Below, one piece after another: positions 25,755 to 41,335 of a DNA stretch of 64,000 nt. Positions within the stretch are counted from its first letter, which is position 1, and each line of letters starts with the position of its first letter. The DNA is taken from assembly GCA_947501685.1 (NCBI GenBank), contig CANMWQ010000004.1, positions 1-64,000 on the forward strand, read 5' to 3'. Under the pieces are notes generated by a model. It was not told the DNA's origin. It saw nothing but the letters and a program-made list of their open reading frames with translations, and ran no database searches. The DNA is from an uncultured Litoreibacter sp. GTDB lineage: Bacteria; Pseudomonadota; Alphaproteobacteria; Rhodobacterales; Rhodobacteraceae. Made by a program: the position numbers and the translations under genes.

Positions 25755-25783
25755 CCCTGCCCCGCCTGATATGATGCGCCCCC

Positions 25784-25823
25784 ACAAAAAAGCCGCCCGC
25801 TCCTGTTTATAGGTGCGGGCGGC
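25784..25823 (-). terminator. Hairpin between dctP and dctQ (attenuator)
   Basis: On the minus strand GCCGCCCGC pairs with GCGGGCGGC (plus-strand positions 25815-25823 and 25792-25800) and is followed by TTTTTTG. This is a strong intrinsic-terminator form placed after dctP, so the binding protein would be made in excess over the permeases. Confidence 0.8.
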
Positions 25824-25838
25824 GTCTTATTGCACGGC

Positions 25839-26831
25839 TTAGTTTGTGCCGCGGATCAGGTTGACCAGATCAGTCAGCTCCGGGTTGGCCTCCAGAAAGC
25901 CGTCATAGACACCGGCCATACGCTCTTGGAACGGGCCTTTGTCAGCGATCTTGTTGATCGTCACGCCACCGGCTTCGACGTTTTTCATCGCCGAGGCTTC
26001 GCGGGCCTGCCACAGCTCACGCTGTTGCGCGGCGCTGTTGCGTGCGGCCGTGGCAACAATCTCTTGCTGCTCCGGGGTCATCGCGTCCCACGCCTTCATG
26101 CTGACGCAGACGCATTCCGGGATGATCAGGTGCTCGGTCAGTGAGTAGAACTGAGCGACCTCGAAATGGCTGACGGATTCGTAGGAAGGCGGGTTGTTCT
26201 CCGCACCGTCCACAACGCCGGTCTTGATCGACTGATAGACCTCGCCGAACGCCATGGGCGTTGCATTGCCGTCAAGCGCCTCGACCATGCCCACGAACAG
26301 ATCATTGTTCATGACGCGCAGCTTCAGGCCTTCGACGTCGGCAGGCGAGTTGATCGGACGGATCGAGTTGTAGAAAGAACGCGCGCCGCTGTCATACCAT
26401 GCCAGCGCCTTCATGCCCTTTTTCTCCATACCGGCGGAGATCGCTTCGCCTACGGCACCATCCATCAGCTCATACATTTCCGGGATGCCCGGGAAGATGA
26501 ACGGCAAGGAGACGACATTGGTCTCAGGGATGGAAGTTCCCATTGGCCCAAGGTTGAACTGGCCAATGTCCAGCGCGCCCAGACGAACCTGCTCGATGGC
26601 ATCGGGCTGGCTGCCCAGAACGCCATTGTGGAACAGCTTGATGGTGACCTCGCCGCCGGTCTTATCCGCCACTTCGGCAGCAAAGGATTCCAGCGCGATG
26701 GAGTTTGGATAATCCTCGACATGGATGTTCCATGCGCGCAGCTCAGCCGCGGCGGCAGGTGCCGCGAGGGCCGCAACGGACAGCCCGGCGGCCACCGCAA
26801 CGCGTTTTGCATTCTTGGTAAAGTCTAGCAT
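25839..26831 (-). CDS. dctP: TRAP transporter substrate-binding protein (DctP family)
   Basis: A 330-residue periplasmic binding protein. A signal peptide (VAVAAGLSVAALAAPAAAA) is cut before ELRAWNIH. The DctP pattern follows: GGEVTIKLFHNGVLG, LGALDIGQFNLGPMG, and the carboxylate-binding Arg region GLKLRVMNNDLFVGM. The ligand is unknown. A GntR/UxuR-like operator 86 bases upstream suggests a hexuronate or aldarate. Downstream decarboxylase and dehydrogenase genes leave other acids possible. Confidence 0.92.
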   Translation of the reverse strand: MLDFTKNAKRVAVAAGLSVAALAAPAAAAELRAWNIHVEDYPNSIALESFAAEVADKTGGEVTIKLFHNGVLGSQPDAIEQVRLGALDIGQFNLGPMGTSIPETNVVSLPFIFPGIPEMYELMDGAVGEAISAGMEKKGMKALAWYDSGARSFYNSIRPINSPADVEGLKLRVMNNDLFVGMVEALDGNATPMAFGEVYQSIKTGVVDGAENNPPSYESVSHFEVAQFYSLTEHLIIPECVCVSMKAWDAMTPEQQEIVATAARNSAAQQRELWQAREASAMKNVEAGGVTINKIADKGPFQERMAGVYDGFLEANPELTDLVNLIRGTN

Positions 26832-26916: not shown

Positions 26917-26936
26917 TCTAGTATGCTAGTATGGCA
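26917..26936. promoter_or_regulatory. Operator A of the GntR-like regulon
   Basis: TCTAGTATGCTAGTATGGCA, 81-100 bases upstream of the dctP start. It shares the core CTRGTATRYTAGTAT with sites at 29116-29135 and 40538-40557. Likely bound by the GntR product of 27042-27725. Confidence 0.6.
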
Positions 26937-27041
26937 AAATAGAAGGCAAGCGTTTTTTCCGCCCTTCGGGTCGTGGCGGCCTATCGCTGCAACCACAGAC
27001 ATACTGGCGCTCAGGAAGGCTGCTCGACCCTGTGCGACAGA

Positions 27042-27725
27042 TCAATCCCAGAAATAGGATTGATGCTCCGCATAGATCGTCTCGATCGTGCTATCGAGGC
27101 GCGAGAGATGGGTTCGGATGGTTTGCCGCAGGCCGTCTTCGTCCTTCGCCTTGAGCTGACGGACAATAGCCTCATGATCCTCGACCAGCTGCGCCATACT
27201 GTCGGCCCCGGTCAAGCTGAGCACGCAGAGACGATCCACATGAGCTTTGTAGCTGGAGATGATCTCGGAGGCGAAATCCGCCTTGGCCGCGTGGCACAAA
27301 AGGCGGTGAAACTCGTAGTCCAGCTTGTGAAACAGCTTGGCATCCCGCGACGCGACCGCGTTTTTTTGCGCGGCAAGCCCTGCGTCGAACTCCTCTGCAA
27401 AGCTGCCATCCCAATGCAGCACCGCGTGATGCATCACCTCCAGCTCGACGGCCAGTCGGGCGAACCGCGCTGACGCAATGGCCGCGCGGGAGAATTTCTT
27501 GACCACTGTGGCCTTCTGGGGCCGGATCAACAGCAGGTCGAGATTGTCCAGACGGCTGAACGCGTCACGCACCGGCTGGCGTGACACGCCGAATTTCGAC
27601 GCGATCTCGGCCTCGGAAATCTTGGTGCCGGGCATCAGCTCAAGCGAGGAGATTTGCTGCTGAAGATAGTCGAAAACCACATCCGCGCTGGTGCGGCGTT
27701 CCTCCACATGTTCAACCATTTCCAT
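27042..27725 (-). CDS. GntR/FadR-type transcriptional regulator
   Basis: A 227-residue regulator. The N-terminal winged helix is PGTKISEAEIASKFGVSRQPVRDAFSRL, residues about 30-60. The C-terminal all-helical FCD ligand-binding domain has the metal-site pattern (YEFHRLLCHAA; AHVDRLCVLSL; DHEAIVRQL). I chose ATG 27725, with GGAG 7 bases upstream; the longer frame to 27836 overlaps gudD. It lies between gudD and dctP and near three copies of a UxuR/ExuR-like operator, so it probably represses hexuronate genes and perhaps itself through the gudD promoter. Confidence 0.9.
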   Translation of the reverse strand: MEMVEHVEERRTSADVVFDYLQQQISSLELMPGTKISEAEIASKFGVSRQPVRDAFSRLDNLDLLLIRPQKATVVKKFSRAAIASARFARLAVELEVMHHAVLHWDGSFAEEFDAGLAAQKNAVASRDAKLFHKLDYEFHRLLCHAAKADFASEIISSYKAHVDRLCVLSLTGADSMAQLVEDHEAIVRQLKAKDEDGLRQTIRTHLSRLDSTIETIYAEHQSYFWD

Positions 27726-27810
27726 CTCGTCACTCCTGCGTTGCAGCGCTCTGTAGTCCAATTTCTGATCTGAGGCTATCCCCAGAAAACCGTCTGCTGA
27801 CCCGGGCCCG

Positions 27811-29061
27811 CTACCATCTGGGCACTTTGCGCACATAATCGGGCACGTATTTCAGCATTTCATCCGTGTCGTCGCGATCCACCACCATCTGCTCGTTATA
27901 AAGCGCGTGCAGCTCCGCCAGAACCTCTTGGTCCAGCTCCACCCCGAGCCCCGGCCCCTCCGGCACCCGCAGCTTGCCGTCCTTGAAGGTCACCCGCCCG
28001 CCCTTGATGATCTCCTTGCTGTACCAAGGGTAATGCGTGTCGCAATCATAGGTCAGGTTCGGCGTAGCGGCGGCGACGTGGCACATGGCGGCCAGGCTGA
28101 TGCCCAGATGCGAGTTGGAATGCATCGACACCCCAAGCCCCGCCGCGCGGCACATCTCGCCCAGATGAATGGCCCCCGTGGCCCCGCGCCAATAGTGATG
28201 ATCCGACAAAATGATCTGCACGGCATCTTTCTGGATGGCCTCAACCACATGCTCGAATTCCACGACCACCAGATTGGTCGCCAGCGGCATCTCGATCATG
28301 GCCGACAGCTCCGCCATCGCGTCGAGGCCGCGCACCGGGTCCTCCAGATATTCCAGAACCCCGTCCAATTGCTTGACCACCTTCGCGGCGGTCGGCACTG
28401 TCCATGCGCCCATCGGGTCGATGCGCAACCCGTGGTCCGGGAAAGCCTCGCGCAGCTTCAGCATGGTCTCGACCTCCTCATCGGGAGGCAGCACGCCGCC
28501 TTTCAGCTTCAAGGACTTGTAGCCATGATCCCCCACCAGCGCTTTGGCCTGTGCGACCATCGCATCCGGGGTCAGCACATCGCCAAAGATGTCGTCGCTC
28601 ACCGCGTCAGGCAGGTTCGCGTATTTGAAGAAGAGATAGCCGCCGAAGGGGATGTCTTTGCGCACGGCCCCACCCAGAAGATCATAGAGCGGGCGGTCTA
28701 CTTCTTTGCCGCGCAAATCAAGGCAGGCGATCTCGAAAGCGGAGTAAACCACGTCCACTACCTTGTGATCCGCCAGCGCCGTCGGCGCGTTCACCCCGCC
28801 CCCCTCTGGCAAGGCCCGCTCCACTCGGCGACGTAAGTCGCGCAGGTCATAGGGGTCCAGCCCCTCAAGCGTGGGGCCCACCGCCTGCAAGCCGGCCAAG
28901 GTCCGCTTGGCACCATACGCTTCGCCCAACCCCACCAGGCCGGTATCAGTTTCCAGCTCGATGATCGCGCGCAGGAACACCTTGCCATGCACGCCTTTCG
29001 TGTTGAGCAACGGCACGTCAGGCACCGCGATCGGGGTAATCTTTATGGTTGTTATCCGCAT
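27811..29061 (-). CDS. gudD: Glucarate dehydratase-like enolase superfamily enzyme
   Basis: A 416-residue enolase-superfamily protein. It has the KxK base motif SLKLKGGV, metal ligands in RIDPMGAW and EYLEDPV, ATNLVVVEFEHV, LSDHHYW, and the His base in SMHSNSHLGISLAAM. The last motif and CDTHYPW match bacterial glucarate dehydratases, which make 5-keto-4-deoxyglucarate. It is first on the minus strand from a shared promoter region with the ABC operon, where operator B sits. A related aldarate is possible. Confidence 0.8.
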   Translation of the reverse strand: MRITTIKITPIAVPDVPLLNTKGVHGKVFLRAIIELETDTGLVGLGEAYGAKRTLAGLQAVGPTLEGLDPYDLRDLRRRVERALPEGGGVNAPTALADHKVVDVVYSAFEIACLDLRGKEVDRPLYDLLGGAVRKDIPFGGYLFFKYANLPDAVSDDIFGDVLTPDAMVAQAKALVGDHGYKSLKLKGGVLPPDEEVETMLKLREAFPDHGLRIDPMGAWTVPTAAKVVKQLDGVLEYLEDPVRGLDAMAELSAMIEMPLATNLVVVEFEHVVEAIQKDAVQIILSDHHYWRGATGAIHLGEMCRAAGLGVSMHSNSHLGISLAAMCHVAAATPNLTYDCDTHYPWYSKEIIKGGRVTFKDGKLRVPEGPGLGVELDQEVLAELHALYNEQMVVDRDDTDEMLKYVPDYVRKVPRW

Positions 29062-29115
29062 AAAAAGACGTCCTAAATCGGCATGCAGGGCTTGAAAAAT
29101 TTTCGTTGCCGATTC

Positions 29116-29135
29116 TTAAATACTAGTATACCAGT
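29116..29135. promoter_or_regulatory. Operator B of the GntR-like regulon
   Basis: Read on the minus strand it is ACTGGTATACTAGTATTTAA, the best match of the three sites to the TGGTATACCA type of operator. It lies 55-74 bases upstream of gudD and 126-145 bases upstream of the divergent ABC ATPase gene, so it could control both. Confidence 0.65.
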
Positions 29136-29260
29136 TGAATAAGGCAAGGTTTATAGGGACCAGGGCTTCACCTCAATCCGGCACGCGCGGAAACGCCGAG
29201 GCCCATTTTGACAGCAAGTCTCCCTATAGCACGCGCTCATACGATCGTCTGGGAGGGCGC

Positions 29261-30364
29261 ATGTCGGGAGTACAACTAGATGGCATCATCAAGCGTTACG
29301 GCGCGGTGCAAGTGGTGCATGGCGTTGACCTGAACGTCGCCGAGAAAGAGTTCGTGGTGCTTGTCGGCCCCTCCGGCTGCGGCAAATCCACGACCCTCCG
29401 GATGATCGCCGGGCTTGAAGAGATCAGCGACGGCGAGGTCACAATTGACGGCCGTATGGTCAACCGCGTCGCCCCAAAGGACCGCGACGTGGCGATGGTG
29501 TTCCAGAACTACGCGCTTTACCCGCATCTCAACGTGGCCGACAATATCGCCTTCGGGCTGCGAATCCGGCGCGAAAGCAAAGAGGTCATCGCCAGCTCCA
29601 TCGACGAGGTCGCGGGCATTCTGGGCCTGACCGACTATCTCGACCGCCGCCCCGCCGATCTGTCCGGCGGCCAGCGCCAGCGCGTCGCCATGGGCCGCGC
29701 CATTGTGCGCCGCCCCAAAGTGTTCCTGTTCGACGAGCCGCTCTCCAATCTGGACGCCAAGCTGCGCACCCAAATGCGTGCCGAGATCAAGCGGCTGCAC
29801 AACCGGCTGGGCGTGACCTCCATCTATGTGACCCATGATCAGGTGGAGGCCATGACGCTCGCCGACCGCATCGTGGTGATGCATGACGGGCGGATCGAAC
29901 AGGTCGGCACCCCGATGGAATTGTTCATGAACCCGGTCAACACTTTCGTGGCCAGCTTCCTCGGCTCGCCGCCGATGAACCAGGTCACAGCCAAGGTCGA
30001 AAAGGTCGGTTCAGACTTTGTTGGCGTCTTTGCGGGCAACCGCCTGCCGCTGGCGCGTCTCGGCGATCTTGAGGCCCGCGTGGGCCAAGACGTCGTCGTG
30101 GGCATTCGCCCCGAATATGTGACCCCCGCCACGGATGGGGTAAAAGACCAAGTGCGGATCGAGCTTGATCTGGTTGAAACACTGGGCTCCGAGGCGCTGC
30201 TCCACGCGATGCTGGCAGACGCGCCTTTCGTGATCAAAGCCGACACCACCACAGCCGCCAGCAAATTGAGCGACGTCACCGGCTTCACCATCGCGCCCGA
30301 GCTGATCCGCATCTTTGACGGCGAGACCGACCTCGCCCTTGCCGGTCAGGACCGCCCTGCATGA
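29261..30364 (+). CDS. ABC transporter ATP-binding protein (MalK/UgpC/AlgS type)
   Basis: A 367-residue ATPase of the carbohydrate-uptake-1 group. It has Walker A GPSGCGKST (residues 36-44), signature LSGGQRQRVAMG, Walker B FLFDEPLSNLD and switch His in YVTHDQVEAM, followed by a C-terminal TOBE domain. The start is ATG 29261, with GGGAGGGCGC upstream; the open frame to 29135 lacks a ribosome site. It is the first gene of an operon with two LplB/LplC-type permeases and a binding protein, as in alginate importers. Confidence 0.93.
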   Translation: MSGVQLDGIIKRYGAVQVVHGVDLNVAEKEFVVLVGPSGCGKSTTLRMIAGLEEISDGEVTIDGRMVNRVAPKDRDVAMVFQNYALYPHLNVADNIAFGLRIRRESKEVIASSIDEVAGILGLTDYLDRRPADLSGGQRQRVAMGRAIVRRPKVFLFDEPLSNLDAKLRTQMRAEIKRLHNRLGVTSIYVTHDQVEAMTLADRIVVMHDGRIEQVGTPMELFMNPVNTFVASFLGSPPMNQVTAKVEKVGSDFVGVFAGNRLPLARLGDLEARVGQDVVVGIRPEYVTPATDGVKDQVRIELDLVETLGSEALLHAMLADAPFVIKADTTTAASKLSDVTGFTIAPELIRIFDGETDLALAGQDRPA

Positions 30365-31320
30365 GCGACGCGAGCCACATCAAGCCTGCGACCAAAACGG
30401 CCCCGATCAGCCGCGGTGCGCGGATCGTGGACGTTCTGAAACGCGACTGGCAGCTTTACGTGATGCTGTTGCCCACCATCATCTGGTTGCTGCTCTTCCT
30501 CTACAAACCCATGTACGGGCTGCAAATCGCGTTCAAGGATTACTCCGTGTTTCGCGGCATCGCCAACAGCCCTTGGGTGGGCTTTGAGCATTTCGAGACG
30601 CTCTTTAACAACGATCAGTTCATCCGCGCCATCCGCAACACGGTGGTGATCAGCTTCTGGTCGCTGCTCATAGGGTTTCCGGTGCCCATCCTGCTGGCGC
30701 TGCTGTTCAACGAGGTGTTGAACCAGAAATTCAAGAAGACCACGCAAACCATTGTGTACCTGCCGCATTTCATCTCCTCGGTGATCATCGCGGGGATTGT
30801 GATTGCGGCCTTCGCGCCCTCTGCGGGGATCGTGAACACGGCCATTCGCGCGCTGGGCGGGGATGCGATTTACTTCCTGACCAAACCCGAATGGTTCAGG
30901 CCGATCTTTATCGGCACCGGCATCTGGCAGGAGGCGGGCTTCCAGTCGATTGTCTATCTGGCCGCCATCGCCGGGGTCTCACCCACGCTTTATGAAAGTG
31001 CAGTCGTGGACGGGGCCAGCCGTTGGCAGATGATGTGGAAGATCACCATCCCCTCCATTCTGCCGACGATCATCATCATGCTGATCATCCGCATCGGCAA
31101 CATTCTCGAGGTCAGCTTCGAGATGATCATCCTGCTCTACCAGCCCGCCACATACGAGACGGCGGACGTGGTCAACACCTTCATCTACCGGCAGGGTCTG
31201 CAAGGTGGGCAATACGATCTGGCCGCCGCCGCGGGGCTGTTCAACGCGGTGATGGCCTTCACGCTGGTGATGGCCGCCAATGCCCTGTCGAAGCGCTATT
31301 CGCGCACGTCACTGTGGTAG
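30361..31320 (+). CDS. ABC transporter permease, LplB/AlgM1 type
   Basis: A 319-residue permease with six membrane segments and the EAA loop (YESAVVDGASRWQMMWKITIPSI). KDYSVFRGIANSPWVGFEHFETLF is typical of LplB/YteP-type oligosaccharide permeases, the group that includes the alginate permease AlgM1. It overlaps the ATPase stop by 4 bases. Confidence 0.92.
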   Translation: MSDASHIKPATKTAPISRGARIVDVLKRDWQLYVMLLPTIIWLLLFLYKPMYGLQIAFKDYSVFRGIANSPWVGFEHFETLFNNDQFIRAIRNTVVISFWSLLIGFPVPILLALLFNEVLNQKFKKTTQTIVYLPHFISSVIIAGIVIAAFAPSAGIVNTAIRALGGDAIYFLTKPEWFRPIFIGTGIWQEAGFQSIVYLAAIAGVSPTLYESAVVDGASRWQMMWKITIPSILPTIIIMLIIRIGNILEVSFEMIILLYQPATYETADVVNTFIYRQGLQGGQYDLAAAAGLFNAVMAFTLVMAANALSKRYSRTSLW

Positions 31321-31333
31321 AGGGGGCACGGTC

Positions 31334-32215
31334 ATGACCAACATGAACCTCTACTCGCCGGGCGACAAAGTCTTCGTCTACCTGTGCATGTTCCTGATCA
31401 GCGTCTTCGCGCTGTCGACGCTTTATCCGTTCATCTACATCGCCGCGATCTCGCTCAGCACGGGCTTTGAGGCACGTGCCGGCAACGTGGTGTTGACGCC
31501 CGTAGACACGACGCTGGCGGCCTATGAATACGTGGTCGCCCAGCGCGAGTTCTGGGTGTCCTACCGCAACACGTTTATCTACACGATCGGCGGCACCATC
31601 ACGAGCCTGCTCTTCATCATCCCCGGCGCCTACGCGCTGTCGCGCCCGCATCTTTACGGGCGGCGGTTCTGGAACCTGATGGTGGCCTTCACCATGTGGT
31701 TCAACGCAGGGCTGATCCCGTTCTTTCTCAACATGCGCGACCTCGGGCTGCTCGATAGCTATATCGGCATCATGCTGGGCTTTGCGATCAACGGCTTCAA
31801 CGTGATCCTGCTGCGCAACTTCTTCGAGGCCATCCCACAAAGCTTTGAGGAAGCCGCCCGCATGGACGGGGCCAACGAATTTCAGGTGCTGTGGAAAGTC
31901 TACATGCCGCTGTCAAAACCCGCCATTGCGACCGTCACGCTGTTTTGCGTCGTCGGCCGCTGGAACGGCTTTTTCTGGGCGATGGTGCTGCTGCAGGACG
32001 GCGAGAAAATCCCGTTGCAGGTTTACCTACGGCAGGTGATCGCGCAGCTCTCCGATGACGAAGAATTCACCGCAACGCTTCTCGATCAGGCCTACTCGGT
32101 CGAGACCGTAACGGCGGCAATCATTGTCGCCTCCATCATCCCAGTACTCATCTTCTACCCATTCATTCAGAAGTATTTCAACAAGGGCATCATGCTGGGA
32201 GGCGTAAAAGAATGA
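31334..32215 (+). CDS. ABC transporter permease, LplC/AlgM2 type
   Basis: A 293-residue permease with six membrane segments and the EAA loop (FEEAARMDGANEFQVLWKVYMPLSKP). YALSRPHLYGRRFWNLMVAFTMWFNAGLIPFFL is typical of the LplC/YtcP group. The start is ATG 31334, with AGAGGGGG upstream. It ends only 56 bases before the binding-protein start. Confidence 0.92.
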   Translation: MTNMNLYSPGDKVFVYLCMFLISVFALSTLYPFIYIAAISLSTGFEARAGNVVLTPVDTTLAAYEYVVAQREFWVSYRNTFIYTIGGTITSLLFIIPGAYALSRPHLYGRRFWNLMVAFTMWFNAGLIPFFLNMRDLGLLDSYIGIMLGFAINGFNVILLRNFFEAIPQSFEEAARMDGANEFQVLWKVYMPLSKPAIATVTLFCVVGRWNGFFWAMVLLQDGEKIPLQVYLRQVIAQLSDDEEFTATLLDQAYSVETVTAAIIVASIIPVLIFYPFIQKYFNKGIMLGGVKE

Positions 32216-32271
32216 CCCGAAAAAAGACCAACAAAACCCCAACACCACCATTGCATAAAGGGAGGAAACTT

Positions 32272-33816
32272 ATGCGAAATCTAACTCTAAGCCTGGCGCT
32301 TCTTGCCGGCACAGCGTTGAGCACACCCGTGTTCGCCGACGGGCATCTGCCCATCGTGGAAGAGCCGCTGGAGCTGTCGATCCACCTGCACTTCAAACGG
32401 GCCACGGCCTATGATGAAAACTGGCCGGTTGAGCAAGCCGCGCGTGAGATGACCAACATCCACCTCAAAAACGCGACCGTCGGCTCCAACACCGACAACA
32501 GCGAAGAGGCGTTCAACCTGCTGCTGGCCTCCGGCGACATTCCTGACATCGTCGGCACCACCCGGATCAAGGAATATGTCAACCAATACGGCCCCGAAGG
32601 CGCGTTCCAGCCGCTCAACGACCTGATCGAAGAGCACGCACCAAACCTCAAGGCATTCCTCGATGAACGCCCTGAGCTGCGCGCCGCGATCACGTCCGCC
32701 GATGGCAACATCTACTACGTGCCGTATTTCCCGGATGGCAAATATGGCCGCGCCTATTTCATCCGTCAGGACTGGCTCGACAAGCTGGGCCTTGAGACGC
32801 CTGAGACTGTGGCCGAGGTCAAAACCGTGCTGGAAGCCTTCCGCGACGGCGACCCGAACGGCAACGGGCTGAAGGACGAAGTGCCTTACTTCGCACGTCA
32901 GTGGGAAGAGGCCGTTCGTCTGGTCACGCTGTTTGACGGCCGCACCTCCGGCTCGGACACCTATCACGACTTCATGGTCGATGATGGCCAGATCAAGCAC
33001 CCCTATGCCACCGAAGGCTACCGCGACGGGATCAAGAACCTCGCCGAGTGGTATGCTGAAGGGCTGGTCGACAGCGAGGTGTTCACCCGTGGATCGTCTG
33101 CGCGCGACTTCCTGTTGTCAGAAAACCTTGGCGGCATGACCCATGACTGGTTTGCCTCGACCTCCGGCTATAACCGTCTGTCCTCAGAAATTGACGGCTT
33201 CGCCTTCAAGGCCTTTGCCCCGCCCGCGTCGCCCTCTGGTCGTCGTCTGGCAGAGCACCGCCGCATCCCCGTCAAGCCAGATGGCTGGGCCATGGGCTTC
33301 GGCAATGAGCACCCGATCGAGACCATCAAGTATTTCGACTTCTACTTCGCCGAAGAGGGCCGCCGTTTGGCCAACTTTGGTGTCGAAGGCCAGCAATATG
33401 AGATGGTCGATGGCGAGCCAAAATTCACTCAGGAATTCCTGGATGGAGGCCCGGTCAACGCGCAGCTCTATCAGGTTGGTGGCCAGCTGGTCGCCCGCGG
33501 TTTCCCGCAGGATTACAACTACGAAATCCAGTGGACCAACGAAATCGCTCTGGAAGGCATCGCTCTCTATGACCAAGGCGACTACCTGACCGACCAGTTC
33601 CTCGGCGTGTCGATGAACACCGATGAGCAAAAGACATTCGATAAGTCTTGGTCCTCGATCCGGACCTATATGCTGGAGCGTCAGCAGGCCTGGATCCTTG
33701 GCACAGGCAACGTTGAAGCCGACTGGGACGACTACATGGCCACGCTTGAAGGCATGGGTCTGAACGACGTGCTCAGCGTCATGCAATCCGCTTACGTGCG
33801 CCAATACGGCGGCTAA
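32272..33816 (+). CDS. ABC transporter binding protein, LipO/AlgQ type
   Basis: A 514-residue periplasmic binding protein with a signal peptide (MRNLTLSLALLAGTALS to VFADG). The size and layout match the large LipO/AlgQ-type binders. DPNGNGLKDEVPY near residues 200-212 is an EF-hand-like calcium loop of the kind found in alginate binders AlgQ1 and AlgQ2. The start is ATG 32272, behind GGGAGGAAACTT. It probably binds an acidic oligosaccharide. Confidence 0.9.
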   Translation: MRNLTLSLALLAGTALSTPVFADGHLPIVEEPLELSIHLHFKRATAYDENWPVEQAAREMTNIHLKNATVGSNTDNSEEAFNLLLASGDIPDIVGTTRIKEYVNQYGPEGAFQPLNDLIEEHAPNLKAFLDERPELRAAITSADGNIYYVPYFPDGKYGRAYFIRQDWLDKLGLETPETVAEVKTVLEAFRDGDPNGNGLKDEVPYFARQWEEAVRLVTLFDGRTSGSDTYHDFMVDDGQIKHPYATEGYRDGIKNLAEWYAEGLVDSEVFTRGSSARDFLLSENLGGMTHDWFASTSGYNRLSSEIDGFAFKAFAPPASPSGRRLAEHRRIPVKPDGWAMGFGNEHPIETIKYFDFYFAEEGRRLANFGVEGQQYEMVDGEPKFTQEFLDGGPVNAQLYQVGGQLVARGFPQDYNYEIQWTNEIALEGIALYDQGDYLTDQFLGVSMNTDEQKTFDKSWSSIRTYMLERQQAWILGTGNVEADWDDYMATLEGMGLNDVLSVMQSAYVRQYGG

Positions 33817-33831
33817 GCTGAACCAACTTTG

Positions 33832-33865
33832 CGGGGCGGCATCTCACTGTCGCCCCGTTTCCTTT
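33832..33865 (+). terminator. Hairpin after the binding-protein gene
   Basis: CGGGGCG (33832-33838) pairs with CGCCCCG (33851-33857) and is followed by TTTCCTTT. It lies between the abundant binding protein and the lyase-like gene, so partial termination would lower downstream expression. Confidence 0.55.
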
Positions 33866-33900
33866 GCCGACCCCTGATCTCTTTGCGAAAGGCGCGCGCC

Positions 33901-36234
33901 ATGCCTGACGGCTCCCCTTCCCTGCCCTTGCTGGATGAACCCAAAGCCGGACGGCTCAACATTCAATACAGCCCCCATGCAGGCACCGTGATCGCCGAAA
34001 ACCCGCCGCGTTTCACATGGCTGCCGATGATCGAGGCGGAGGCGCAATATGTGCTGCGCGTCTCTACCGACCCGAAATTTCCCGCAAGCAAGACCACAAG
34101 CTATGAAGGCCTGCCGCTGAACCTGTTCACCCCCGACGCGCCGCTGGCGTCGGGCGAGTATCACTGGTCCTATGCCGTCTGGTCGCCCAACGACAAAGCC
34201 CCAGCCTCTACTTGGAGCCAGACCCGCAGCTTCACGCTGGCGGGCGGCCTGCCTGAAACCCCGCTGGCCAGCCGCGCAACCCGCTACGACAAAGCGGAGA
34301 TGGCCCATCCAAGGCTCTGGCTCAGCCCGCAGCTTTTGAAGAGATTCCAGAAGGACCTCGCCAAGGACCCCGGCCATTGCAGCTGGGACGTGTTCTTCGA
34401 GAAATCCGTCGCGCCCTGGATGGAGCGCGACCTGATCACGGAGCCCGAGGGCTACCCCAACCACCAGCGCACCGCCCCAATCTGGCGCGCCACCTATATT
34501 GCCTGTCAGGAGCTGCTTTACGCGATCCGGCATCTGGCCATCGGCGCGAAGGTCACGAATGATCCCAAGATGCGCGCCCGCGCCAAGGAGTGGCTGATGG
34601 AGGCCGCGTCGTGGAACCCCACCGGGACGACGTCGCGCAGCTACACTGATGAATGGGCGTTCCGCGTCAATCTGGCGCTCGCTTGGGGCTATGACTGGCT
34701 GCATGACGACCTGTCGGACACGGAGCGGGACACCGTGCGCGCGGCCCTCTTGGCCCGCACACGTGAGACCGCAGACCACATCATCAAACACGCCAATATC
34801 CACCTCTTCCCCTTTGACAGCCACGCGGTCCGCGCGGTCTCCGCGGTGTTGATCCCGGCCTCCATCGCGCTTCTGGACGACGCCGAGGAGGCGCGCGACT
34901 GGCTGGACTACTCGGTCGAGTTTCTCTCCACGGTCTATTCCCCTTGGGGCGACAGCGAGGGCGGCTGGGCGGAGGGCCCGCATTACTGGATGACCGGCAT
35001 GGCCTATCTGATTGATGCGGCAAATATGCTCAAAAGCTTCTCCGGCATCGACGTCTACCAACGGCCCTTCTTTCAGGCCACGGGGGATTTCCCGCTCTAC
35101 ACCAAAGCGCCAGATACCCGCCGCGCCACCTTTGGCGATGACAGCACCATGGGCGACCTGCCCTGCCTGAAAATCGGCTACAACCTGCGCCAATTCGCAG
35201 GCGTCACCGGCAACGGGGCCTACACGTGGTATTACGACGAGGTCAAACGCAACGACCAAGGCACCGAGATGGAGTTCTACAACTGGGGCTGGTGGGACTT
35301 CAATTTCGACGAGATGGTCTACCTGCATGATTTCGGTCTGGTGGAGGCCACCTCTCCCTCCGATCTGCCCAAGCTGCGCTGGTTCAAAGGCACTGGCTGG
35401 GTGGCCCTGCAGCACAAGATGGATGACCCCGACGGGCATATTCAGTTTGTCATGAAATCCTCGCCCTTCGGGTCGATGAGCCACAGCCATGGCGACCAGA
35501 ACGCGTTCTGTCTGGCGGGCTTCGGAGAAGATCTCGCCATCAACTCCGGCTATTACGTCGCCTTCAACTCGACCATGCACCAAAACTGGCGCAGGCAGAC
35601 GCGATCCAAAAACGCGATCCTGATCAACGGCAAAGGCCAATATGCCGGCAAGGACAAATCCGCCGCCATGCGCGCCACCGGCAAGATCATCACCTGCGAG
35701 GAGCGCGAGGACCACATCTACATCCAAGGCGACGCCACAGAGGCCTACCGCTCCCTGACGCCTGAGATCACCCAAGTGCTGCGCGACGTGTATTTCGTGA
35801 ATAACAGCTTCTTCGTGATCGTGGACGCGGTGGATGCTTCCGAGCCAGTAGAGGTGGACTTCCTGCTCCACGCAAACGCGCCGATGGCTTTGGGGGACAA
35901 CACCTTCCGCTACACGGGGCAAAAGGCCGGGTTCTACGGCCAATTCCTCTGGTCCGAGGCCGGGGCCGCGACCCTGACCCAAGAGACCGGTTTCGCCGAT
36001 GTGGACCCGGCTGAATATAAGGGCCTGTCGGAAAGCACCTGCCTGCACGCCAAATTCCCCAAAGCGATCCGCCACCGCATCGCCACGCTGATCGTGCCCT
36101 ACAGCCTGAAAGACCCGCAGCGGGTATTCAGCTTCCTCGACGATCAGGGCTACGATTGCGACCTCTATTTCACCGACGCTGACGAGCGCAGCTTTAAAGT
36201 CACCGTGCCAAAGACCTTCGACGTCGGGCGTTAA
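33901..36234 (+). CDS. Heparinase II/III-like, DUF4962 family protein (putative uronate lyase)
   Basis: A 777-residue protein. The first 130 residues are a fibronectin-like module (PPRFTWLPMIEAEAQYVLRVS and so on, DUF4962). A long alpha/alpha toroid follows (HPRLWLSPQLLKRFQ; WAFRVNLALAWGYDWLHD; FPFDSHAVRAVSAVLIP; GWAEGPHYWMTGMAYL). The heparinase II/III beta-sheet domain is last (SPFGSMSHSHGDQNAFCLAGFG; NWRRQTRSKNAILINGKGQ). The family cleaves uronate-containing polysaccharides by beta-elimination, giving unsaturated ends. There is no signal peptide (MPDGSPSLPLL), so it should act on imported oligosaccharides. The substrate is not shown. Confidence 0.85.
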   Translation: MPDGSPSLPLLDEPKAGRLNIQYSPHAGTVIAENPPRFTWLPMIEAEAQYVLRVSTDPKFPASKTTSYEGLPLNLFTPDAPLASGEYHWSYAVWSPNDKAPASTWSQTRSFTLAGGLPETPLASRATRYDKAEMAHPRLWLSPQLLKRFQKDLAKDPGHCSWDVFFEKSVAPWMERDLITEPEGYPNHQRTAPIWRATYIACQELLYAIRHLAIGAKVTNDPKMRARAKEWLMEAASWNPTGTTSRSYTDEWAFRVNLALAWGYDWLHDDLSDTERDTVRAALLARTRETADHIIKHANIHLFPFDSHAVRAVSAVLIPASIALLDDAEEARDWLDYSVEFLSTVYSPWGDSEGGWAEGPHYWMTGMAYLIDAANMLKSFSGIDVYQRPFFQATGDFPLYTKAPDTRRATFGDDSTMGDLPCLKIGYNLRQFAGVTGNGAYTWYYDEVKRNDQGTEMEFYNWGWWDFNFDEMVYLHDFGLVEATSPSDLPKLRWFKGTGWVALQHKMDDPDGHIQFVMKSSPFGSMSHSHGDQNAFCLAGFGEDLAINSGYYVAFNSTMHQNWRRQTRSKNAILINGKGQYAGKDKSAAMRATGKIITCEEREDHIYIQGDATEAYRSLTPEITQVLRDVYFVNNSFFVIVDAVDASEPVEVDFLLHANAPMALGDNTFRYTGQKAGFYGQFLWSEAGAATLTQETGFADVDPAEYKGLSESTCLHAKFPKAIRHRIATLIVPYSLKDPQRVFSFLDDQGYDCDLYFTDADERSFKVTVPKTFDVGR

Positions 36235-36255
36235 ACATTAAGGACAGGAAGAGAC

Positions 36256-36999
36256 ATGACCCTCAAAGGCAAAACAGCAATCGTAACCGGCGGCGGTCGT
36301 GACATTGGCCGGGCCTGCGTGATGCGGCTGGCGCAAGAAGGCGCGTCGGTGGCGATCAACTACCACTCCTCCAGCGCAGGCGCCGACAGCGCGGTCGAAG
36401 AGATCAAAGCGATGGGCGGCAGTGCTTTCGCGATGCAAGGTGATCTGACCAATGAGGCCGACGTGACCGCACTTGTGGACCGCGCCGCCTCCGAGTTGGG
36501 CGGCGTTGATATTCTGGTGAACAACGCAGGCGGCCTCGTCGCCCGCAAACGCATCGAGGAGATGGATCTCGCCCATTGGAACACGGTCATGGACCTGAAC
36601 CTGACCTCCGTCTTCCTGATGGTCAAAGCCAGCCTCGCCCATATGACATCCGGCGCGATCATCAACATCGCCAGCCAAGCCGGCCGCGATGGCGGCGGGC
36701 CGGGCGCCGTGGTCTATGCCACCTCGAAAGGCGCGGTGATGACCATGACACGCGGGCTGGCCAAGGAGTTGGGGCCCGACATTCGCGTCAACGGCATCTG
36801 CCCCGGCATGATCGACACCGATTTCCACAACGTCTTTACCAAGGACGAGGTGCGCAAGAACGTCGCCAATGCCACACCTTTGAAACGCGAAGGCGCGCCG
36901 ATGGATGTGGCCAATCTGGTGAACTACCTGGCCTCCGACCAGTCGGCCTTCATCACAGGCACCAATATGGACATCAATGGCGGGCTGGTCTTCAGCTAA
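36256..36999 (+). CDS. SDR oxidoreductase in the uronate operon
   Basis: A 247-residue classical SDR (TGGGRDIGRA; VNNAGG; Ser in NIASQAG; VVYATSKGA with Tyr-x3-Lys). INYHSSS after the second strand favours NADPH. In alginate users an SDR reduces the unsaturated-uronate product DEH to 2-keto-3-deoxygluconate; this is a candidate for that, although KduI and KduD offer a parallel route. AGGACAGG precedes its start. Confidence 0.85.
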   Translation: MTLKGKTAIVTGGGRDIGRACVMRLAQEGASVAINYHSSSAGADSAVEEIKAMGGSAFAMQGDLTNEADVTALVDRAASELGGVDILVNNAGGLVARKRIEEMDLAHWNTVMDLNLTSVFLMVKASLAHMTSGAIINIASQAGRDGGGPGAVVYATSKGAVMTMTRGLAKELGPDIRVNGICPGMIDTDFHNVFTKDEVRKNVANATPLKREGAPMDVANLVNYLASDQSAFITGTNMDINGGLVFS

Positions 37000-37018
37000 G
37001 CCCTTAACAGGAGGCTCT

Positions 37019-37537
37019 ATGTCTCACGCAAAACCCGCCGCAGGCGCGGCCCTGCCAGAAATGAACTTCCCAAAACTGGGGGGAGGCACGCTGTCCGTCG
37101 GCGGCCCCCGCGACACGCATACTCTGTTCGTGGTCTATCGCGGCAAGCATTGTGGACGCTGCAAAAAATACCTCGCGATCCTCGACAAGATGGCGGGCGA
37201 CTGGGAGGCGGCAGGCTTTGAGATCGTCGTGGTCTCCGCCGACCCGGAAGCAAAAGCACAAGCCGATATCAACGAATTCGGCTGGGGGTTTGATCTTGGC
37301 TATGACCTGTCCGAGGACCAAATGCGCGCGCTGGGGCTCTACATCTCCGACCCACTCTCCCCAGATGAAACCGACCGCCGCTTCGCCGAACCCGGCGTGT
37401 TCTGCGTCCGGCCCGACGGCGTGCTTCAGGTCGTCTGCATCTCCAACGGCCCCGCCGCCCGCCCGGAATTGGGGGAGCTACTGGATGGCATGACGTTCAA
37501 CATCGCCCATGACCGCCCTGCGCGGGGGATGGCTTAG
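37019..37537 (+). CDS. Redoxin/peroxiredoxin-like protein
   Basis: A 172-residue thioredoxin-fold protein of the AhpC/TSA-like redoxin family. TLFVVYRGKHCGRCKKYLAIL holds a CGRC pair, and VVVSADPEAKAQADINEFG follows, as in peroxiredoxin-like proteins. It is probably cytoplasmic. The start is ATG 37019, behind AGGAGGCT. It is the last gene of the uronate ABC operon; its link to uronate use is unclear. Confidence 0.82.
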   Translation: MSHAKPAAGAALPEMNFPKLGGGTLSVGGPRDTHTLFVVYRGKHCGRCKKYLAILDKMAGDWEAAGFEIVVVSADPEAKAQADINEFGWGFDLGYDLSEDQMRALGLYISDPLSPDETDRRFAEPGVFCVRPDGVLQVVCISNGPAARPELGELLDGMTFNIAHDRPARGMA

Positions 37538-37597
37538 GGCGCCCAATAGCATATGCACTGCTCACCGGCGAAATGACGGCTTCGAACCCAAAACACG

Positions 37598-37652
37598 TTT
37601 TGGTACAAAATGGGGCAAAACTTTTTGGGCCAATACCCATTTTGTACCAAAA
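37598..37652. repeat. Perfect 17-bp inverted repeat
   Basis: TTTTGGTACAAAATGGG (37598-37614) and its exact complement CCCATTTTGTACCAAAA (37636-37652), separated by 21 bases. It lies in a low-GC gap between the redoxin and GNAT genes. It could be a cruciform, a terminator-like RNA hairpin or a protein-binding pair. Confidence 0.85.
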
Positions 37653-37672
37653 TATTTCGTTAACAGGTCGAC

Positions 37673-37699
37673 GATTTACCCACAGGCTGTGGATAAATC
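37673..37699. promoter_or_regulatory. Palindrome of two DnaA-box-like sites
   Basis: The 27-bp sequence is palindromic at 12 of 13 pairs. It contains TGTGGATAA (37688-37696), the complement of the DnaA box TTATCCACA, facing TTACCCACA (37676-37684), one base different. Two boxes head to head could bind DnaA or a related initiator. Confidence 0.6.
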
Positions 37700-37829
37700 A
37701 GACTCAATCGTGAAATGCCGCTCGCGTAGGGCGCAGCGAATATCTAAAATGAGCCCGAGTAACGAATGCTGCGATTTGAACGAATGGCAGTTTTCATGCG
37801 CACCCACCGAAATGGTCTTTCTCATTGAC

Positions 37830-38333
37830 CTAGTGTAGCCGCTTGGTCAGCCAAAGGATCAAGTGATCGTCCACACGATACTCTGTGCCTGGTTTGACCG
37901 GCGAGCCGTGGTACGTAATGCCACGACCATCTGGAGCATACCCGAGACTTGTATAGAGCCTCTGGGCCGCTCCGTAGTCAGCATACAACCCAACTCCGAT
38001 GCCAACCATGGATCGCCCATCCGCTGCAGCGGACACTTCAAGTTCGCGAATGATTTTCGTTGCAATACCCTTGCGTCGAAATTGTTTACAAGTAGCTAAG
38101 TCGTGGATTTCAGGAATACCATTCTCAGCGAGTGAACTGTATCCTGACTCCCAAACTAGGCTACCGTATCCAACCGCTAGACCGTCCATCAATGCGACCA
38201 CGGTAGCTTGTTCATTCGCTTTAGTTTTGCGCAACCGATCCGCCCATACATCGGCATCATGCTTCCAACCGTTGCCACCGTCGCTTTCGATGATGGCTCC
38301 GATATTTGAGAAGCTAAGTGGTTCGATATCCAT
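37830..38333 (-). CDS. GNAT family N-acetyltransferase
   Basis: A 167-residue acetyltransferase. The acetyl-CoA motif is LATCKQFRRKGIATKIIRELEVSA. The later YGAAQRLYTSLGYAPDGRGITY contains the usual C-terminal strand. The substrate is unknown. Its composition is AT-richer than the neighbours, and it is flanked by unusual repeats, so it may belong to an inserted segment. Confidence 0.85.
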   Translation of the reverse strand: MDIEPLSFSNIGAIIESDGGNGWKHDADVWADRLRKTKANEQATVVALMDGLAVGYGSLVWESGYSSLAENGIPEIHDLATCKQFRRKGIATKIIRELEVSAAADGRSMVGIGVGLYADYGAAQRLYTSLGYAPDGRGITYHGSPVKPGTEYRVDDHLILWLTKRLH

Positions 38334-38433
38334 TTTGCGACGGTAGCATCAAACTAACGGGTTTCTGCAAGCTGACATTCGATAAACTTACTGCAACGGC
38401 AGTTTGATCCCGCAAAGCAGCCCTCCCCCAGCT

Positions 38434-38514
38434 GGGCGAGCGCAAGACCGTGGGATGGCCCCTCTCGGCGATTGCGAAGGGCAATCGCCTGTCGGTCGAA
38501 GCTTGCGCTCGCCC
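38434..38514. repeat. Nested palindrome, about 81 bases
   Basis: Outer arms GGGCGAGCGCAAG (38434-38446) and CTTGCGCTCGCCC (38502-38514) are a perfect 13-bp inverted repeat. Inside, GGCGATTGC (38467-38475) and GCAATCGCC (38481-38489) form a perfect 9-bp stem with a 5-base loop. ACCG/CGGT adds a middle pairing. It looks like a dispersed palindromic repeat or a structured RNA. A short open frame across it (38354-38545) is not credited as a gene. Confidence 0.75.
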
Positions 38515-38596
38515 GGCGCCTGCGGCTTGATTCCGGGCGGGTCAACGCGCTGAAAGGCAGTCAGCAAAGCAAACCACTCCGCCCCACCACAAAAAC

Positions 38597-39325
38597 CTAC
38601 CGCGCGAGCCAGCCTCCGTCGACGTTCAACACGGCGCCGTGGATGTACTTGGACGCGGGCGCGGAGAGGAAGACGGCTGTCTCGGCAATGTCATCCGCCT
38701 GCCCCCAGCGCCCGGCTGGGATGCGCTCGAGGATGGCCTTGTTGCGCTCCGGATCGGCGCGCAGGGCTTCGGTGTTGTTGGTCTCGATATAGCCCGGTGC
38801 GATGGCGTTCACGCCGATGCCGCGGGCGGCCCATTCATTGGCGAGGATCTTGGTCAGCCCCGCGACCCCGTGTTTGGAGGCCGTGTAGGACGGCACCCGG
38901 ATGCCGCCCTGAAAGGACAGGAGCGAGGCGATGTTGACCACCCGCGCCTCTCGCTTCTCAGCCAAGGCCGCTTTGGCAAAGGCCTGCGTCGTGAAAAACA
39001 GCGCCTTGAGGTTCACATCCATCACGGCGTCCCAATCGGCTTCCGTGAAATCTGCGCTGTCGTCGCGGCGGATGATGCCCGCATTGTTGACCAGAATATC
39101 GACCTCCCGGTCGGCAAAGATCCCCGTCCCCGCCATCGGGTCGGCAAAATCGAGGCTCATGGCCTCCGCACTGTCGATCATCGCAGCAGTTTCCGCGCAG
39201 GAGGAGCGCCCCGCGCAGATCACATGCGCGCCCGCCCGGCCCATCGCCAGAGCGATGGCCTGACCAATACCGGTATTGGCCCCGGTGACGAGCGCGGTTT
39301 TCCCCGCGAGGCTGAACGCGCTCAA
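38597..39325 (-). CDS. kduD: KduD, 2-dehydro-3-deoxy-D-gluconate 5-dehydrogenase
   Basis: A 242-residue SDR that reduces 2,5-diketo-3-deoxygluconate to 2-keto-3-deoxygluconate. It has the NAD motif TGANTGIGQ, VNNAGIIRR, SLLSFQGGIRVPSYTASKHG and ERIPAGRWGQADD, which are diagnostic for KduD. It overlaps the kduI stop by 4 bases and is third in kdgF-kduI-kduD. Confidence 0.94.
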   Translation of the reverse strand: MSAFSLAGKTALVTGANTGIGQAIALAMGRAGAHVICAGRSSCAETAAMIDSAEAMSLDFADPMAGTGIFADREVDILVNNAGIIRRDDSADFTEADWDAVMDVNLKALFFTTQAFAKAALAEKREARVVNIASLLSFQGGIRVPSYTASKHGVAGLTKILANEWAARGIGVNAIAPGYIETNNTEALRADPERNKAILERIPAGRWGQADDIAETAVFLSAPASKYIHGAVLNVDGGWLAR

Positions 39326-40146
39326 CGCAGATCCTCCATCGCAACCATTTCGACGTCCTTATAATCAACATTGTCGCCCGCCATGGCCCAGCAGAACGTG
39401 TAGCTGCCGGTGCCCGCGCCGCAATGGATCGACCACGGAGGCGACAACACGCCTTCCTCGTTCTTCATCACGATATGGCGCGTCTCCTCGGGCTGACCCA
39501 TGAAGTGGAACACCCGGTTGGCGTCGTCGAGATTGAAATAGAGATAGGCCTCCATGCGGCGGTCATGAAGATGCGCAGGCATCGTGTTCCAGACGGAGCC
39601 GCCGTGGAACATCGTGTAGCCCATCACAAGCTGGCAAGTCTCCATCACGTCAGGGTGGATGAACTGGAAGATCGTGCGCTCATTGGCGGTCTCGGCCGCC
39701 CCCATATTGACGGAGGCCGCGTCCTCGATGGTCACCAGCCGTGTCGGGTATTTGGCATGCGCAGGCGTGGAGACGATGTAGAACCGTCCGGGGCCGGAAA
39801 AGTCGATCTTGCCGGAGCCCATCTCGAGATACAGCATATCGCCCGAGCCCACAGCATGATCCACACCCGCCGCGCTGATCGTCGCAGGCTCGCCAATGTT
39901 CAGCACGCCCATTTCGCGACGGTCCAAAATCGAGGCCGTGCCGCATTCTTTGACCTCATCCAGCGTCAACGTGCCTTTGCCGGGCACCGCGCCGCCGACA
40001 ATCATGCGGTCATAATGCGAATAGGTCAGGCGAATTTCGCCCTCGGCAAACATACCCTCGACATGGAAATTGTCACGCAGCTGCGTGGTGTCCATCGCCT
40101 TGGCGGCGTTCGGGTCAATGGCGTAGCGGGTGGTCACAGTAAGCAT
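39322..40146 (-). CDS. kduI: KduI, 5-keto-4-deoxyuronate isomerase
   Basis: A 274-residue cupin isomerase converting 5-keto-4-deoxyuronate to 2,5-diketo-3-deoxygluconate. The double beta-barrel has the Zn ligands in NTMPAHLHDRRMEAYLYFNL (two His and a Glu) and a fourth His in WSIHCGAGTGSYTFCWAM. It lies 12 bases after kdgF. Confidence 0.95.
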   Translation of the reverse strand: MLTVTTRYAIDPNAAKAMDTTQLRDNFHVEGMFAEGEIRLTYSHYDRMIVGGAVPGKGTLTLDEVKECGTASILDRREMGVLNIGEPATISAAGVDHAVGSGDMLYLEMGSGKIDFSGPGRFYIVSTPAHAKYPTRLVTIEDAASVNMGAAETANERTIFQFIHPDVMETCQLVMGYTMFHGGSVWNTMPAHLHDRRMEAYLYFNLDDANRVFHFMGQPEETRHIVMKNEEGVLSPPWSIHCGAGTGSYTFCWAMAGDNVDYKDVEMVAMEDLR

Positions 40147-40158
40147 AGAAGCGGTCCT

Positions 40159-40467
40159 TTACAGAAAGTCGTCGCGGCGGGGGGTGAAACAGTCGATCAG
40201 CTCGCCCGGCTCAACGCAGACGCAGCCATGCACGGCCTCCGACGGGATCACGAAGCTGTCGCCCGGCCCCACCTCGGTCTCGACGCCAGCGACGGAGAAG
40301 GTGAAACGCCCCGATTTCACAAAGGTGGATTGCACATGCGGGTGGTTGTGCAGCTTGCCCTCGGCCTCCGCCTGAAAGCGAAACGACACGACCATCAGGT
40401 CGGGATGGTCGGCCAGAACCTGACGTTTGACGCCTGGGTCTGCATCTACAATTGGGAACTGTGTCAT
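40159..40467 (-). CDS. kdgF: KdgF-type cupin, unsaturated uronate to 5-keto-4-deoxyuronate
   Basis: A 102-residue single cupin. The metal site is His40, His42, Gln46 and His80 (HNHPHVQSTFVKSGRF; PSEAVHGC). The ending ELIDCFTPRRDDFL is typical of KdgF. KdgF converts the delta-4,5-unsaturated uronates released by lyases into the linear ketouronate for KduI. First of kdgF-kduI-kduD; operator C lies 71 bases upstream. Confidence 0.88.
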   Translation of the reverse strand: MTQFPIVDADPGVKRQVLADHPDLMVVSFRFQAEAEGKLHNHPHVQSTFVKSGRFTFSVAGVETEVGPGDSFVIPSEAVHGCVCVEPGELIDCFTPRRDDFL

Positions 40468-40537
40468 ATCAAATATCTGCCTCGCTTGATCGGTGACTCT
40501 GGCTAAATTTCCGACGCCCGTTTCGGACGCACCCTTA

Positions 40538-40557
40538 ACTGGTATGTTAGTATGCCA
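40538..40557. promoter_or_regulatory. Operator C of the GntR-like regulon
   Basis: ACTGGTATGTTAGTATGCCA, 71-90 bases upstream of kdgF. It matches operator B in 13 of the 15 core bases. The rest of the 325-base gap between kdgF and allA (40468-40791) shows no gene that I can support. Confidence 0.62.
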
Positions 40558-41280: not shown

Positions 41281-41335
41281 CGACGTCGCCACCAAGAGCG
41301 ACATACAGGGACAGTCTAACAAAAGGGAACAACAG

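Follow-up and report, generated by a model that had tools for sequence, protein, structure and literature searches.

A shared operator and a probable GntR/FCD regulator of alginate-oligosaccharide and unsaturated-uronate genes in an uncultured Litoreibacter

The 64,000-nt stretch of an uncultured Litoreibacter sp. analyzed here (hereinafter the window; the genome it belongs to comprises 3.32 Mb on 16 contigs) carries three exact copies of a 15-mer, CTRGTATRYTAGTAT, and no further exact copy, raising the question of which regulator reads these sites and to which substrate it responds. A preliminary description of this DNA had placed a shared core at 26917-26936, 29116-29135 and 40538-40557, and the exact 15-mers indeed lie inside all three intervals. 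We consider it highly probable that all three serve as operators for the GntR/FCD protein whose gene lies at 27042-27725 and define a single regulon, which we read, from the gene families behind them, as one for alginate oligosaccharides and unsaturated uronates, serving the uptake and breakdown of seaweed alginate. The sites and the predicted regulator are as follows:

26918..26932, forward strand: operator 1, CTAGTATGCTAGTAT, between the 3′ end of gntR and the start of dctP; exact match
29120..29134, reverse strand: operator 2, CTGGTATACTAGTAT, in the divergent intergenic region 29062-29260 between gudD-like and algS; exact match
40539..40553, forward strand: operator 3, CTGGTATGTTAGTAT, ahead of kdgF-kduI-kduD; exact match
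27042..27725, reverse strand: gntR, a FadR-subfamily regulator with an FCD domain (Pfam GntR and FCD)

Each operator sits in intergenic DNA 5′ of an operon, namely dctPQM for operator 1, gudD-like/gntR divergent from algS for operator 2, and kdgF-kduI-kduD for operator 3, with the site centers 66-134 bp before the start codons (~94 bp for dctP and ~79 bp for kdgF). Allowing up to 3 mismatches to the 15-mer yields 7 matches in the window as compared to a mean of 0.72 and a maximum of 3 for shuffled patterns; the near-palindromic nature of the site accounts for the four additional matches, which overlap operators 1 and 2. In the organism's own genome, only the three window operators are found within 1 mismatch, and a single further site (C6:169367) joins them at 2 mismatches. 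The latter was rejected as a promoter site as it lies just beyond the stop codon of a gene for a short-chain dehydrogenase/reductase (SDR). Given so few sites, the motif is not randomly scattered in this genome, so that the first refuting condition named in the preliminary description does not hold here. The reversed control pattern gives 13 matches in the same genome at up to 2 mismatches, all on one strand, and none at up to 1.

The genes under the three operators are, one per line (ABC, ATP-binding cassette; TRAP, tripartite ATP-independent periplasmic; DEH, 4-deoxy-L-erythro-5-hexoseulose uronate):

25839..26831, reverse strand: dctP, solute-binding protein of a TRAP transporter, with 67% identity to the Sulfitobacter entry 4pf8
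25239..25787, reverse strand: dctQ, by family match, with a nominal start codon
23956..25236, reverse strand: dctM, by family match
27811..29061, reverse strand: gudD-like, an enolase-superfamily dehydratase by family match, 5′ of gntR on the same strand
29261..30364, forward strand: algS, ABC ATPase (open reading frame nominally from 29135)
30361..31320, forward strand: algM1, ABC permease, by family match
31280..32215, forward strand: algM2, ABC permease, by family match
32212..33816, forward strand: algQ, alginate-oligosaccharide binding protein, best structures AlgQ1 (556 bits) and AlgQ2
33829..36234, forward strand: oal, oligoalginate lyase, best structures 3a0o and 3afl ('oligo alginate lyase')
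36256..36999, forward strand: SDR, a probable DEH reductase judging from its position
40159..40467, reverse strand: kdgF, matching the KdgF structure 5fq0 (75.8 bits)
39322..40146, reverse strand: kduI, 5-dehydro-4-deoxy-D-glucuronate isomerase, above the NCBIfam equivalog cut-off
38597..39325, reverse strand: kduD, 2-dehydro-3-deoxy-D-gluconate 5-dehydrogenase, above the NCBIfam equivalog cut-off

These genes are the reason for uniting oligoalginate import and cleavage, unsaturated-uronate processing and TRAP transport in one regulon. The six genes from algS to the SDR diverge from gudD-like-gntR across operator 2; algS is taken to start at the ATG at 29261, which is residue 43 of the nominal reading frame and the point from which the protein matches UgpC and MalK. 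The Oal protein matches an oligoalginate lyase structure with 1074.5 bits over 765 residues, and we take its family to be CAZy PL15. The SDR scores 148.7 bits against the DEH reductase structure 4tkl, its top match being an unassigned dehydrogenase. A search for endo-lyases with PF08787 found no match, a negative that carries no weight, as the control genomes were equally without one. KduI and KduD serve the pectin-type isomer of the unsaturated uronates. According to the accessible text of PMC13390454, KdgF, DEH reductase, KdgK and Eda take the unsaturated monomer to glyceraldehyde 3-phosphate. Extending the regulon to the lower Entner-Doudoroff step, as judged by its aldolase, was rejected, since the 10-kb stretches (L203, L204) around the aldolase-family (PF01081) genes at C3:79892 and C5:213873 contain no site within 3 mismatches.

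Hence, of the preliminary claim of a hexuronate regulon, the architecture of one operator at three promoters with one GntR/FCD regulator survives, while the substrate changes on account of the AlgS-M1-M2-Q importer and the oligoalginate lyase. Likewise, each operator does precede an operon, but the unit described as 'gudD/ABC' encodes an importer for alginate oligosaccharides and, with it, an oligoalginate lyase. Nor is the label 'gudD' itself supported: the protein reaches 240.5 bits against the glucarate dehydratase model TIGR03247, far below its cut-off of 828.7, and is supported only as an enolase-superfamily dehydratase.

The regulator scores above the Pfam cut-offs for both the GntR (59.5 bits) and FCD (67.7 bits) domains, placing it in the FCD regulator class, and its protein model matches FCD-type regulator structures. 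Its start is most likely the ATG at 27725 rather than position 27836, because an AGGAG lies upstream and its relatives begin nearby. D173, H177, H221 and H243 are invariant in an alignment of 24 homologues; we take this aspartate and the three histidines to be the metal ligands of the FCD domain. Relatives of this protein at E<=1e-40 are encoded by 48 of the 198 family genomes. Five of these carry two gntR paralogues within ~15 kb around one alginate locus (L040, L049, L052/L061, L060 and L066 from genomes G173, G025, G049, G145 and G071, respectively).

Across the family, the site and the regulator travel together: a site within 1 mismatch is present in 34/48 genomes with gntR as compared to 22/150 of those lacking it (Fisher P=6.6e-13), as against 17/48 and 63/150 for the reversed pattern (P=0.50). 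Such co-occurrence across genera backs the earlier nomination of the GntR gene at 27042 as the regulator. The family genomes contain 82 distinct sites, of which 43 lie within 15 kb of gntR, 12 elsewhere in gntR-bearing genomes (more than 15 kb away or on another contig) and 27 in genomes without gntR. Five of the 12 remote sites precede TRAP, SDR-TRAP or kduI-kduD operons: dctPQM on another contig (L167) or 0.9 Mb off (L173), a second-type TRAP operon on another contig (L169), dehR-dctPQM at 24 kb (L170) and kduI-kduD at 25 kb (L171). AlgQ at E<=1e-120 is found in 20/198 family genomes, all of which have gntR, with the two genes on different contigs in G007. A class-wide search among 385 genomes gave AlgQ in a single genome from outside the family; the best match at its locus (L202) departs from the 15-mer at 3 positions and from the 12-bp core at 2.

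To examine conservation before orthologous genes, 40 family stretches around gntR were compared along with 80 named loci, the best 80 of at least 571. By title the named loci are mostly from Rhodobacteraceae, to which we presume further genera among them to belong; the others are bins assigned to Granulosicoccaceae (L117, L127, L136, L138, L139), Geminicoccaceae (L110), Kiloniellaceae (L132), Hyphomicrobiales (L143) and Rhodospirillales (L152). The 40 family loci contain 36 matches within 1 mismatch in 26 loci (200 column-shuffled patterns: mean 0.16, maximum 6) and the 70 non-duplicate named loci 51 matches in 37 loci (shuffled mean 0.38, maximum 3), counts in which one near-palindromic site may appear twice. 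At up to 2 mismatches, a site is also seen in three of the five Granulosicoccaceae loci (L117, L127, L139).

In the 300 bp upstream of relatives' genes, assigned at 40-60% identity cut-offs depending on the gene, the 15-mer occurs with up to 2 mismatches before algS in 36/40 cases, gudD-like in 9/9, dctP in 21/44, gntR in 56/114 and dehR in 14/61, as compared to 6/2000 random control windows from the same loci. With the 12-bp core at the same tolerance the counts become 36, 9, 31, 84 and 18, respectively, against 21/2000 random windows. As random windows are mostly coding DNA, shuffled patterns were scored on the upstream regions too: 200 of them gave means of 0.10 (algS), 0.02 (gudD-like), 0.20 (dctP), 0.33 (gntR), 0.15 (dehR), 0.05 (kdgF) and 0.01 (kduI), with maxima of 1 to 3 across regions, altering no conclusion. 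No site within 2 mismatches is seen in four of the algS regions (L066, L098, L127, L130), although in L098, L127 and L130 a site does lie between algS and its neighboring gene.

The core, WCTRGTATACYAGT, is near-palindromic and conserved while its flanks are near random. Sites selected as CTRGTATACYAG with up to 1 mismatch comprise 91 with mixed TGGT/TAGT half-sites, 30 with TAGT/TAGT and 11 with TGGT/TGGT. The arrangement is a GT-N-AC palindrome with TKGT/ACMA boxes, wherein the TGGT half fits TKGT and the TAGT half departs from it at the second letter. A NanR-like direct repeat of two CTRGTAT units 8 bp apart was considered as well; the palindrome is preferred, although the repeat can still be read in the sites. 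In the selection by the 12-bp core, the next outward position extends the palindrome (T 0.89), whereas the positions completing a second repeat are weaker (A 0.52 and T 0.52 in mixed sites; A 0.63 and T 0.77 among the 30 symmetric sites). Overlapping pairs 8 bp apart number 13. The window operators are single, while relatives have tandem core sites within 2 mismatches, 22 pairs being 20 bp apart and 9 pairs 33 bp apart. The 20-bp spacing, about two helical turns, suggests cooperative binding; such pairs are seen near counterparts of operator 2, e.g., in L041, L049, L050, L057 and L069.

When gntR copies are grouped by their neighboring genes and the best site before each is taken (within 2 mismatches of CTRRTATRYYAG), a site is present in 37/46 of the ALG group, 14/16 of the kdu-type, 15/16 of the dehR-plus-second-TRAP, 15/16 of the TRAP-plus-dehR, 9/16 of the TRAP-only and 5/6 of the remaining copies. 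The consensus is CTRGTATACTAGT in the ALG group, CTRATATGCTAGT in the kdu-type and CTKGGATACTAGTCA in the dehR-plus-second-TRAP group (GG-A in 12/15), while the TRAP groups have mixed, mostly ALG-like sites. Thus, the CTAG half is constant and the other half varies with the regulator group. The gntR copies are not independent and this comparison has no chance control, hence it carries no P value; even so, of all the sequence data, this tracking of regulator groups by operator variants speaks most strongly for the GntR protein itself reading the site.

Several observations weigh against this picture. A site within 1 mismatch is missing from 14/48 genomes with gntR and present in 22/150 without it, so that a lone 1-mismatch match in a genome is weak evidence. 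Seven of the 12 remote sites lack a target of the above kinds: L176 precedes another GntR gene, and the exact site in L172 (G067) has as its neighbors a MobA-like transferase gene and a DAO/GCV_T (glycine-cleavage-type) oxidoreductase gene with no uronate link. Twenty of the 22 site-bearing genomes without gntR were examined at one site each. In 8 of these 20 loci (L179, L181, L182, L184, L187, L190, L192, L194) the site precedes another GntR gene, of 26-38% identity; in the remaining 12 it does not. The 8 loci, together with L176, indicate that related regulators read similar sites. Upstream of relatives' kdgF and kduI the 15-mer is found in 4/36 and 0/21 cases, and the core likewise in 4 and 0. 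By eye, kdgF, kduI and dehR are frequently not first in their operons among relatives; a site does precede kdgF in L044, L046, L067, L101 and L102 and kduI-kduD in L171. In L044, from the same genus as the window, a 1-mismatch site stands before kdgF-kduI-kduD-gntR. The matches in that locus are broken, into three pieces for kduD and two for kdgF, with kduI matched in part and an in-frame stop in the gntR match, so it looks interrupted or mis-sequenced. Sigma-70-like promoter pairs are not enriched (2 found vs 4.3 expected from shuffles), and both regulator-site binding and effects on expression are predictions.

We propose the following mechanism. A GntR dimer would bind the near-palindromic core at the three promoter regions and, without substrate, most likely repress the alginate-oligosaccharide ABC importer, the oligoalginate lyase and the SDR, its own gene along with the dehydratase, kdgF-kduI-kduD, and a uronate-type TRAP transporter. 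A pathway product, most likely an unsaturated uronate (DEH or DKI) or 2-keto-3-deoxygluconate (KDG), would enter the FCD pocket and free the DNA, jointly switching on the oligo- and mono-uronate routes to KDG. The sites, their positions, the gene families, and the conservation and co-occurrence with the regulator are established by the sequence; from these we infer binding, repression over activation and the identity of the effector, and we are less sure of the sign of control and the effector than of the regulon and its regulator.

Known systems offer precedence for such control. The alginate system of Sphingomonas sp. A1 has the AlgQ1/AlgQ2 binding proteins, the closest structures to the window's AlgQ; its AlgO belongs to the GntR family, and we know of no TRAP or kdu arm there. 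AlgO is named as a transcriptional regulator in the accessible text of PMC8286568. The characterized precedent for repression here would be AusR of Zobellia galactanivorans, described in the accessible parts of PMC7874173 and PMC8286568 (after Dudek 2020) as a GntR-family repressor of alginate catabolism with one to three operator copies at alginate-utilization promoters, its complexes being broken by alginate-derived intermediates. Compared by these descriptions, the flavobacterial system differs in its transporters; the window shares with it common operators before alginate importer and lyase genes and a regulator encoded nearby. In Vibrio sp. C42, an alginate locus with kdgF and dehR includes the GntR genes GntR-1 and GntR-2, two of three being upregulated on alginate, with a porin, a sodium/solute symporter (SSS) and a tripartite tricarboxylate transporter implicated there, unlike here (accessible text of PMC13390454). 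GntR control of alginate genes is thus already known in Zobellia, with GntR genes noted in other alginate loci, as far as these sources extend. For Rhodobacteraceae, the open-licence literature (subscription journals being largely outside it) gave us no publication dealing with this operator or its regulator, and the locus is a well-supported, apparently unstudied case of an established type of regulation.

That the GntR protein activates, or acts both ways depending on the site, is unlikely. The tandem operators of relatives are compatible with either mode and sequence alone leaves the sign unsettled; against this stand the distances of the sites from the start codons, the position of operator 1, which occupies the interval between the two boxes of a weak promoter-like pair (TTGCCA-17-TACGAT, a type not enriched here), and the precedent of AusR being a repressor (accessible text of PMC8286568). 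We regard it as very unlikely that the operators are genuine but read by another FCD paralogue, with the neighboring GntR merely co-occurring. The similar sites before other GntR genes in 8/20 loci and the paired gntR copies of five family genomes would accommodate such a reader, but none of the 10 other FCD genes of the organism's own genome has a site within 3 mismatches in its ~3.4-kb stretch, the operator variants track groups of the 27042-27725-type regulator, and over half of the distinct family sites lie near this gntR.

Scarcely probable, in our view, is a plain regulon for glucuronate, galacturonate or glucarate of the UxuR/ExuR kind, as originally described. The nearest matches of DctP are Sulfitobacter and Roseobacter TRAP proteins (61% identity to 4ovq besides the 67% to 4pf8), which we presume to bind hexuronates. 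The structure search with DctP served for identity and entry names only, because the model is poor (mean predicted local distance difference test, pLDDT, of 58.6). The operator also shares its GTATAC center with the UxuR sequence that the preliminary description quoted, and UxuR/ExuR of Escherichia coli are FadR-subfamily regulators of uronate catabolism. The operators resemble each other in having the box of the FadR subfamily, TKGT/ACMA, but not in spacing, ExuR being listed with 3 nt between GT and AC as against 2 nt in the window (PMC4494728, accessible text); no UxuR operator sequence for comparison was found in the accessible part of PMC12842492. Moreover, UxuR/ExuR control other genes: the three operons here do not present the hexuronate isomerase, reductase and dehydratase set, no uronate isomerase or mannonate dehydratase family was seen among 20 open reading frames scanned against Pfam, the dehydratase is far under the glucarate cut-off, and the central operon is of the alginate type.

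Some neighboring genes may be recorded alongside. Behind the SDR, the alg operon ends with an AhpC/TSA-type redoxin gene (36977-37537), the reason for its presence being unexplained; homologues of 53-68% identity occur in 13/120 relative loci, often near gntR (L060, L061, L065, L098, L106, L114, L123, L124, L128, which duplicates L065, L129, L146, L148, L152). A pyridoxal-dependent decarboxylase gene (22538-23935) that reaches no NCBIfam equivalog cut-off follows dctM on the same strand. Divergent from the kdgF operon are genes for a ureidoglycolate lyase and a xanthine/uracil-type permease (40792-42703), which operator 3, ~245 bp away, probably does not serve.

The TRAP arm bears on how the family divides its substrates. 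AlgQ is absent at the cut-off from 28/48 genomes with gntR, and in four such genomes (G101, G004, G134, G110) dehR-dctPQM is divergent to gntR with a site of 0, 1, 2 and 3 mismatches between them (L055, L056, L046 and L063, respectively). This suggests, as a prediction, that the TRAP transporter imports monomers such as DEH. Tentatively, and with somewhat less than even confidence, we posit a two-tier alginate economy in which some genomes import oligosaccharides via algSMMQ-oal, while others keep the GntR, SDR and TRAP genes under operator control and live on DEH released by neighbors, the TRAP system being the DEH importer and regulator groups with their own half-sites controlling the oligomer, monomer and pectin-type routes.

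With this analysis, a locus present in many genera of one marine family gains an assigned regulator, operator and class of substrate. From it follows a prediction of which family members use alginate oligomers and which monomers only; the regulator groups with differing half-sites offer a test set for operator choice by FCD proteins, and the SDR-TRAP operons are specific candidates for a system that takes up DEH.

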